The position numbers and the translations under genes are program-made. A DNA stretch of 64,000 nt, taken from positions 20,023-84,022 of the forward strand of contig CANPYT010000003.1 in NCBI GenBank assembly GCA_947588705.1, in the 5' to 3' direction. Source of the stretch: an uncultured Acetatifactor sp. GTDB lineage: Bacteria > Bacillota > Clostridia > Lachnospirales > Lachnospiraceae. Below, one piece after another: positions 10,129-63,530 of the stretch. Numbering within the stretch: the first letter of the stretch is position 1; each line of letters starts with the position of its first letter. The notes under the pieces are model-generated. The model saw nothing but the letters and a program-made list of their open reading frames with translations, was not told where the DNA came from and made no database searches.

Positions 10129-11070
10129 TCAGCGGCACAGGATCATGCCCGCTGCGCCGTAGATCCCCGCATCGTTCCCAAGCTCCGCCAACGCCAGCTT
10201 CACTCCCCTGCAGGGAGGGAACGCATATTTATCCAATTCCGGGCGGACAAATTCCAGAAGGATCTCCCCGGCCTTTGAAACGCCTCCGCCGATCACAAAT
10301 ACTTCCGGGTTTACCACATTAGCAACTGCCGCAAGGCCCTTTCCCAGATACCGGCCGAACCGCCCTGCGATCTCTATGGCGACCTTATCTCCCGCTTTCA
10401 CCGCGTCAAACACTGCCTTGGCGGACAGATTGCCCTCCCGCAGAGTGCTGGGGGCATCGTCCTCAGCCAGCCGTCTCCTGGCCAGGCGGACGATTCCCGT
10501 AGCGGACGCATACTGCTCCAGGCAGCCCTTGTTCTTACAGCCGCATTCCTCCGTCTCATTGTCTTCTATATGGATGTGGCCGATCTCGCCTGCCGCTCCC
10601 GTGGCGCCTGTGATAATACTTCCATTCACGATGATACCGCCGCCCACGCCCGTGCCCAGCGTTACCGCCACCATATTTCTGTAGCCCTTGCCGCCACCCT
10701 GCCACATTTCGCCGAAAGCGGCGGCATTGGCATCGTTAGCTACCTTTACCGGTACATTAATATATGCGTTGAGCGCTTTTGGTATGTTAAAGGGCCTCCA
10801 TCCGATATTGACCGAGCCGCCCACAAGAGTTCCCTCAGCGTCTACCGCCCCCGGAACGCCGATGCCGATGCCGACCAGATCCTTCTCTTCGATTCCCTTT
10901 TCCTTCATTTTCTTCCGGATGCTCTCCGCCACATCCGGAAGGATGGATGCCCCCTCGTTGTCCTTCACCGTGGGGATTTCCCACTTGTCCAGGACGCGGC
11001 CGTCCAGATCAAAAAGCCCCAGTTTCACCGTGGTGCCCCCCACGTCTACGCCAAATGCATAATTTCCCAT
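10129..11070 (-). CDS. ROK-family glucokinase
   Basis: FGVDVGGTTVKLGLFD...VTLGTGVGGGIIVNG...EIGHIHIEDNETEECGCKNKGCLEQYASA. Confidence 0.92.
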   Translation of the reverse strand: MGNYAFGVDVGGTTVKLGLFDLDGRVLDKWEIPTVKDNEGASILPDVAESIRKKMKEKGIEEKDLVGIGIGVPGAVDAEGTLVGGSVNIGWRPFNIPKALNAYINVPVKVANDANAAAFGEMWQGGGKGYRNMVAVTLGTGVGGGIIVNGSIITGATGAAGEIGHIHIEDNETEECGCKNKGCLEQYASATGIVRLARRRLAEDDAPSTLREGNLSAKAVFDAVKAGDKVAIEIAGRFGRYLGKGLAAVANVVNPEVFVIGGGVSKAGEILLEFVRPELDKYAFPPCRGVKLALAELGNDAGIYGAAGMILCR

Positions 11071-11096
11071 ATTCCTTACCCCTTTCCGGCCTGTTT

Positions 11097-12041
11097 TTAT
11101 TCTTCGTCCTCTTCGTCACGCCGCTTGGCCAGAGAATTTTGTACTCTCGTATATAGCTCCTGGGCGGCGTTATACCCCATCTTTTTCTGGCGGTGGTTGA
11201 CCGCCGCGGACTCACAGATAATAGCCAGGTTCCGCCCGGGGCGGATGGGAATATCGTGGCACACCACTTTATTTCCCAGATATTCGGTATATTTTTCCTC
11301 CAGGCCAAGCCTGTCATACTCCTTGTCTTTGTCCCAATCCTCCAACCGGATCACCAGGTCTATGTTCTGGGTGTCCTTTACGGAAGAAGCGCCAAACAGC
11401 GCTTTTATATCCACAATACCTATGCCGCGCAGCTCGATCAAATGCTTTGTCACATCCGGCGCACTGCCCACCAGAGTGTCATCGCTCACCTTCCGCAGCT
11501 CCACCACATCGTCCGTCACCAGCCTATGCCCTCTCTTCACCAGCTCCAACGCCGCCTCGGATTTGCCGATACCGCTCTCACCGGTAATAAGCACACCCTC
11601 GCCATAGACATCGACCAACACGCCGTGCACGGAAATACAGGGCGCAAGTTTCACATTCAGCCAGCGTATGGTCTCGGCCATAAACGCGGATGTGGACTTC
11701 TTGGTAGAGAGCAGCGGTATCCGGTGCGCCAGGGCGGATTCCATAAAAATAGGATCCGGCTGCAGTTCCCTGCAGAACACGATAGCAGGAATGTCATAGC
11801 TCATCAGCTCATCGTACACTTCCCGCTTTCTCGCGTCACTCAGGCTTTCCACATAAGTGTATTCCACAAATCCCACCACCTGGAGACGGGTGGCGTCAAA
11901 ATGTTCAAAATATCCCGTCAGCTGAAGAGCCGGACGGTTGATATCGGGCTGAGTGATACGGATCCCCTTCATCTCGATCTCGGGAGTAAGATTGTCCAGT
12001 TTCATCTTTTCGATCAGCTGGTTCAAAGAAATACTTGCCAT
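11097..12041 (-). CDS. hprK: HPr(Ser) kinase/phosphorylase
   Basis: GVLVDVYGEGVLITGESGIGKSEAALELVKRGHRLVTDDVVEL; ELRGIGIVDIKALFGASSV. Confidence 0.95.
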   Translation of the reverse strand: MASISLNQLIEKMKLDNLTPEIEMKGIRITQPDINRPALQLTGYFEHFDATRLQVVGFVEYTYVESLSDARKREVYDELMSYDIPAIVFCRELQPDPIFMESALAHRIPLLSTKKSTSAFMAETIRWLNVKLAPCISVHGVLVDVYGEGVLITGESGIGKSEAALELVKRGHRLVTDDVVELRKVSDDTLVGSAPDVTKHLIELRGIGIVDIKALFGASSVKDTQNIDLVIRLEDWDKDKEYDRLGLEEKYTEYLGNKVVCHDIPIRPGRNLAIICESAAVNHRQKKMGYNAAQELYTRVQNSLAKRRDEEDEE

Positions 12042-33238: not shown

Positions 33239-33352
33239 ACTCTCATCCTCTCATAAATACACAACAACTCTGGCCATATCTCACATATATGACTATAATA
33301 ACATGATATTCCTGATTTTTCAATGAGATCTATTTTCCAATTTATTGGTGAA

Positions 33353-33514
33353 TAACAGTTCAGCCAGACGCCTGATTTGATGGAAAATCGTGCTTGCACG
33401 AATTTTCCATCATGTCTGGCGGCTGAGAGAGCGCCGTTTTATGAGCAAAGGCAGGCGCACAGCGCCGGAGAGCGCGTCAGCGCGGCTTTGCGAATGGCGT
33501 GGGCTGAACTGTTA
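33353..33514 (+). repeat. Dispersed structured repeat, copy 1
   Basis: 13-bp perfect terminal inverted repeats TAACAGTTCAGCC/GGCTGAACTGTTA; internal nested hairpins; shares core with copies at 45362 and 63415. Confidence 0.85.
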
Positions 33515-33726
33515 CATTGGAGAATCTCCCCTCAATCGCCGACCTGACCATGTCCAGCTCCTCCTCCATGATGCAGTGCGGAAAGAGGCGTATTTCCATC
33601 CTCCGTCACCTCCGGGATCTCAGCCGTCATATCATTCAGACTTAAGATCTCAAGCGAAAGCCCACTCAGCCATTCCCGGGCATCCGACAGCTTTGCCGGA
33701 TTTCCGGTCCCATACAGCAGCTTCAT
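33515..33726 (-). pseudogene. Remnant of a HAM1/RdgB-like NTP pyrophosphatase
   Basis: MKLLYGTGNPAKLSDAREWLSGLSLEILSLNDMTAEIPEVTEDGNTPL then out-of-frame sequence; adjacent frame MEEELDMVRSAIEGRFSNVTVQPTPFAKPR* runs into the repeat. Confidence 0.6.
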
Positions 33727-45281: not shown

Positions 45282-45361
45282 TCACTTCACCTTTTTAATT
45301 CACCTTTATTTCTTTTATTTCTTTGGTTCCTTTTTTTCTTTATTTCTTCTTTATTTCTACG

Positions 45362-45520
45362 TAACAGCTCAGCCGGTTGCCGTGTCCAGAAGGAAATCGT
45401 GCCCGCACGAATTTTACTCTGGATACGGCAACCGAAGGAGCGCCATCTGACGGACAAAGGCGGGCGCACAGCGCCGGAGTGCGCGTCAGCGCGGCTTTGC
45501 GTTTGGCGCGGGCTGAACTA
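45362..45520 (+). repeat. Dispersed structured repeat, copy 2
   Basis: TAACAGCTCAGCC...GGCTGAACT ends; shares GGCGCACAGCGCCGGAG-GCGCGTCAGCGCGGCTTTGCG core with copy 1; different but paired long stem. Confidence 0.85.
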
Positions 45521-63384: not shown

Positions 63385-63414
63385 TTCTTAAATGGAATAC
63401 TTTTCTTTCTTTGA

Positions 63415-63522
63415 TAACAGTTCAGCCGCCATTCGCAAAGCCGCGCTTACGCGCTTTTCGTCGCTCCGCGACTTCCTTTGCTCACAAAAAAGCGCTCCCT
63501 CAGCCGGCTGGCTAAACTGTTA
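63415..63522 (-). repeat. Dispersed structured repeat, copy 3 (short form)
   Basis: TAACAGTTTAGCC...GGCTGAACTGTTA in minus orientation; shares GAGCAAAGG...GCGCGTAAGCGCGGCTTTGCGAATGGCG core. Confidence 0.8.
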
Positions 63523-63530
63523 CGAAAAAT

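Follow-up and report, generated by a model that had tools for sequence, protein, structure and literature searches.

A Lachnospiraceae MITE with IS66-type ends and an interior related to Clostridiales-1 RNA

The 164-bp element at positions 33352-33515 (plus strand) of the window, by which we mean the whole stretch of 64,000 nucleotides analysed here, is a MITE, a non-autonomous transposon of Lachnospiraceae. It is set apart by an interior related to the Clostridiales-1 RNA (RF01699). The assignment as a MITE is based on 8-bp target duplications together with presence or absence of the element at orthologous sites. Our best explanation, which we regard as very likely, is that the family is mobilised by IS66 and carries a structured RNA as its passenger.

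The copy at 33352-33515 (copy 1) was found with nhmmer and with our own covariance model (187.9 bits), and is flanked by an imperfect 8-bp target duplication with 7/8 identity between the left member ATTGGTGA (33344-33351) and the right member ATTGGAGA (33516-33523). The original prediction described perfect 13-bp inverted repeats enclosing a long hairpin, a GCAAAG/CTTTGC closure and two inner hairpins, all of which are present. Alignment with relatives extends the repeat to 14 bp across the family (G-TAACAGTTCAGCC), with an A at 33352 as the first position in copy 1, and the extent is therefore given as 33352-33515. The left terminal inverted repeat is ATAACAGTTCAGCC (33352-33365, plus strand; family sequence GTAACAGTTCAGCC) and the right one is GGCTGAACTGTTAC (33502-33515, minus strand). 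Between them, on the plus strand, lie a long variable hairpin (33363-33421, helices 1-3), whose stem sequence is swapped with compensation between relatives and which contains a conserved apical hairpin TCGTGCTTGCACGA (33388-33401) common to Clostridiales-1 RNA, and a multi-branch domain (33431-33500, closure GCGCC/GGCGT, helices 4-5) with the GCAAAG/CTTTGC helix and a conserved ATGAGCA...GCGAAT motif. This domain holds the inner hairpins GGCGC-ACA-GCGCC (33454-33466, helix 6; GTCGCGGAGCGAC in other copies) and GCGC-GTCA-GCGC (33472-33483, helices 7-8). The predicted RNA fold of copy 1 reaches -84.7 kcal/mol, as compared to -55.7 kcal/mol in shuffles (z -8.1). The element contains no transposase gene, the sole overlapping window ORF being a 129-aa frame that exits it. 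A short ORF lies beside the insertion on the minus strand (33532-33726); by eye it resembles an RdgB/HAM1 diphosphatase that breaks off soon after its start, and a Pfam search with it gave no match.

At up to two mismatches the terminal repeat occurs at 10 sites in the window, against 0.95 expected, and strong matches to our own covariance model are exactly three, namely copy 1, copy 2 (45361-45519, plus strand, 146.8 bits) and copy 3 (63414-63523, minus strand, 101.7 bits). The same order of parts had been claimed at 45362 and 63415. Copy 2 does keep this order, with an alternative long-hairpin sequence and a right end truncated at GGGCTGAACT, but the claim is only partly true for copy 3, since that copy lies on the minus strand and is missing the long hairpin; copy 3 also has no recognisable target duplication. 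Further copies in the parent genome, which had been set as a test of the prediction, are abundant. More than 40 good copies were among the matches listed in a BLAST search with the element, and in the sampled 1.58 Mb, which make up 55% of the assembly, there are 118 whole or partial copies, the element being one of roughly 200. The 14-mer repeat, allowing at most one mismatch, is found at 238 sites in the parent genome versus 1 for a reversed control. Copy lengths are variable, and one 50-bp element consists of the two ends alone with a perfect 8-bp duplication. We found no match to the element in a plasmid collection. Scanning a viral collection with the 14-mer gave mostly chance matches, along with three short elements with duplications, and a human faecal phage record (MT835743.1:10890-10977) holds a stretch that matches the element's 3′ half at 77% identity.

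Evidence for DNA transposition comes from a scan in which each species was represented by one genome and two exact ends had to lie 100-130 bp apart; it returned at least 119 stretches, from records titled Lachnospiraceae or near relatives, a few being labelled just ‘bacterium’, ‘Clostridium sp.’ or ‘Clostridia bacterium’. Among the 118 elements with both flanks in these other records, an 8-bp direct repeat is exact in 70 and matches at 7/8 or better in 97, compared to a mean of 1.3 for shuffled flanks; other repeat lengths (5-7 and 9-11 bp) gave at most two exact cases among the 118. The duplicated 8 bp are AT-rich. At orthologous sites, elements in genomes G005, G035 and G013 are missing from contigs C6, C1 and C2 of the parent genome, where the flanks align on both sides at 75-81% identity with no element between them. 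As the base-level alignment is poor in the middle of these sites, they are taken as presence/absence rather than as precise empty sites. A REP-like element, which had also been suggested, is excluded, as the palindromic REP/RAYT type with its Y1 transposase makes no target duplication and the 8-bp duplication here is clear. The covarying fold described below, and the Rfam type ‘sRNA’ of RF01699, would fit a chromosomal non-coding RNA gene family, an ordinary sRNA multiplied by duplication whose terminal repeats merely form a closing helix. The target duplications refute this as a sufficient account, and together with the absence of elements at orthologous sites, the unrelated interiors found between identical ends and the 50-bp element made of ends alone, they render it scarcely credible.

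Copies in the parent genome are mainly intergenic, and the element contains a terminator-like hairpin on both strands, as would be expected of intergenic terminators or cis-regulatory elements retained for host gene expression. However, there is no preference for convergent genes, with 10 of 62 copies lying between such genes as compared to 113 of 597 gaps overall, and no orientation bias towards either upstream (31:31) or downstream (33:29) genes. RF01699 was also rated as not cis-regulatory by Weinberg et al. 2010 (PMC2864571), and we assign this explanation a very low probability.

Single-ORF elements of the IS66 family (ISBst12-type) have the same ends as the element. The published ISBst12-group element ISDge4 ends in GTGACTACTCAGCA/GTAACTGCTCAGCA with a repeat of 8 bp (PMC12898284), so that a GTAACTGYTCAGCA-like terminal repeat and an 8-bp target duplication are common to both, whereas the window element is without a transposase gene and has an unrelated interior. 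In the genus, MITE ends were seen at 0 of the 30 loci examined for the top PF03050-scoring IS66 elements, which have other ends, and MITE-like ends (about 11/12 core match) were seen in a lower-scoring single-ORF subgroup. Duplications are 8/8 in two IS66 elements of G006 (L441 and L442, ends GTAACTATTCAG) and likewise in L467, L468 and L482 (in G017, G271 and G462); TnpC of the single-ORF elements matches PF03050 and passed NF033517, the NCBI IS66 model, where tested. A MITE with exact window-type ends (L079) is about 87% identical, beyond the repeat, to the end of the insertion sequence L477, and is an obvious deletion derivative of such an IS. A search with this end revealed exact GTAACAGTTCAGCC ends in a number of genomes, several of the ends lying at contig breaks, as expected for a multi-copy IS. 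In one such genome (G533) the 14/14 identical end is present in two copies, one of which (L493) has an IS66 DDE transposase ORF starting 47 bp inside; a single end is visible there, as the contig end cuts both element and ORF, and the TnpC fragment scores 135 bits against an NF033517 cut-off of 180.

A different DDE family could be the mobiliser, with convergent likeness to IS66 ends, and it is true that an intact IS66 with both exact ends was not recovered and that the parent genome gave no PF03050 match. The end identity in the two G533 copies argues against this, as do the same ends on an IS-derived MITE and the shared 8-bp duplication, which leaves such a family only a slim chance. IS66 (ISBst12-type) is well supported as the probable mobiliser. 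In the 55% of the parent genome sampled, no pair of terminal repeats 300-4000 bp apart with a duplication was found either. The proposal of a MITE-like element mobilised in trans is supported by exact 8-bp duplications, by presence/absence at orthologous sites and by an identical terminal repeat with an IS66 transposase gene next to it. Under the IS66 explanation, the transposase would act in trans, binding the terminal repeats and copying or moving the element to mostly intergenic sites in either orientation, and the cognate transposase would now be absent from the parent genome or lie in its unsampled part. One candidate partner, a terminal repeat near a DUF6444 fragment in G398, was rejected as just a remnant, because its ORF runs on into Cas1. 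This ORF (L464/L489; G398:C32, ~10895-11707), with a GTAACAGTTCAGCC end about 500 bp away, is an in-frame fusion of the IS66 DUF6444 remnant with a Cas1 domain (PF01867, E=3.7e-62).

Bacterial MITEs such as MITEAba12 and the RUP, BOX and Correia elements are short and non-autonomous, with terminal repeats, target duplication, high copy number and modular hairpins. The element shares its short size, repeats, duplication, copy number and hairpins with them, and differs in that its interior is a conserved, Rfam-related RNA fold that is common to elements with other ends. Ends and interior behave as separable units, since in other genomes GTAAC ends flank quite different interiors, some of which repeat the end internally in inverted orientation, and since in the parent genome, where the long hairpin comes in two sequence types, one copy (L029) is a hybrid whose left arm is of one type and whose right arm is of the other. 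Window-type interiors are dissimilar to every IS66 end compared, an IS-derived interior having been seen just in L079; the interior of the element is not IS-derived. The RNA module may have come to lie between IS66 ends as a passenger, or its own ends may have evolved into them. The end is also found doubled as a short hairpin, GTAACAGTTCAGCC...GGCTGAACTGTTAC within 32 bp (L502:1496-1527, L508, L042, L126 and similar).

The statement that the element matches nothing named holds in so far as an Rfam search gave nothing at gathering score; it does not extend to the ends, which are those of a known IS family, nor to a full-length sub-threshold match of copy 1 to RF01699 (36.9 bits, E=7.5e-7, model positions 1-166, with a gathering score of 48 bits). 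This gathering score was reached by 0 of 15 related loci, and in the reciprocal direction our model R1 matched RF01699 loci weakly (best E 2.5e-4 to 0.01). Both families are high-copy in Lachnospiraceae, and in both the closing helix, the GCUUGC-capped hairpin and the AUGAGCA...GCGAAU domain follow one another in the same order. The element is missing the last ~33-nt 3′ hairpin of RF01699 and has one extra inner hairpin, while the remaining helices align. Given the sub-gathering score and these missing and extra hairpins, we treat the element as a divergent relative of RF01699 and not as a member by the Rfam rule.

Covariation was analysed in 28 relatives over 36 internal pairs, with the terminal helix left out. 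Compensatory double changes are present in 20 of the 36 pairs, and covariation is 0.323 as compared to 0.126 in shuffled alignments. For the long hairpin (helices 1-3), 12 of 14 pairs show both-sided changes, and the wholesale replacement of its stem between relatives, with complementarity kept, is visible by eye. Paired cells make up 94.5%, exceeding all shuffles as well as slid controls, the latter comparison being flattered because the alignment itself was the source of the structure. Homology at low score and covariation together establish a conserved predicted fold related to Clostridiales-1 RNA, and the covariation supports the earlier suggestion of an RNA family.

Whether selection acts on this fold as RNA or as DNA is addressed by mispairs. 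Among recent copies in the parent genome, G-U (123) and A-C (109) mispairs are similarly frequent, with no strand-specific pairing, and hence the decay of copies once inserted is neutral. Between species, the listed strand shows G-U in excess of A-C (36:17 and 11:3), and the reverse-complement folds show no such excess. With no strand-specific pairing in recent copies, the case for RNA-level selection comes solely from this weak cross-species excess, which hints at selection on one RNA strand in spreading lineages. The fold might instead act as DNA, with extruded or single-stranded hairpins recognised by the transposase or by host factors and complementarity maintained via quasi-palindrome correction. 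Such a role would account for the mispair balance in recent copies, for the lack of orientation preference relative to genes and for a long stem that swaps wholesale yet keeps its complementarity; it would not predict the one-strand excess across species, nor that the unpaired GCTTGC loop, ATGAGCA and GCGAAT motifs are conserved in both end types, and we consider it somewhat unlikely. On the RNA reading, the interior is presumably transcribed and may function as RNA, its fold being kept in spreading lineages via selection on the folded strand. A bolder and rather unlikely version would make Clostridiales-1-type RNA a working part of a selfish element, transcribed, folded and able to swap ends (GTAAC here, GATACCAGGG elsewhere), that aids its own spread, e.g. 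through transposase binding or protection, or by hiding the inserted copy from selection.

Of 120 family genomes, 66 contain typical RF01699 members, often in at least 20 copies. Where a second end is recognisable, they have GATACCAGGGTCAAAAGG-like ends in place of GTAACAGTTCAGCC, and their direct repeats are mostly 7 bp where those of the element are exactly 8 bp (among 21 copies, exact 7-bp repeats in 9 and exact 8-bp repeats in 2; shuffled mean of 0.7 at 7 bp). From these ends and repeats it follows that the orphan RNA is also, at least largely, a mobile-element interior; what has counted as an ‘orphan RNA’ of gut bacteria would in fact appear to be mobile-element cargo. Weinberg et al. 2010 listed RF01699 as a probable RNA, and their main text is silent on its transposition (PMC2864571); in the open-access literature we found nothing linking Clostridiales-1 RNA to mobile elements, other papers merely naming the RNA. 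Unexplained since 2010, it and a divergent sister are now placed between transposon ends with target duplications, and the question shifts from the regulatory targets of an sRNA to the reason why a MITE retains an RNA fold. There is also a caution for RNA discovery, in that RNA finders can misread a MITE as a regulatory RNA, or else some MITEs are themselves RNA genes. A viral scan for GATACC-type ends was empty, and a candidate autonomous partner for them turned out to be no transposon but genes with a separate MITE on either side. Individual Clostridiales-1 loci include a copy about 30 nt upstream of the RNase P RNA gene on the same strand (L228:1115-1672) and a direct tandem of three Clostridiales-1 RNAs (L231:1165-1667). 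GATACC-type ends alone form a 69-bp near-perfect palindrome (L487, G205:C9:107908-107976), which is seen again at G205:C22:25751-25819.
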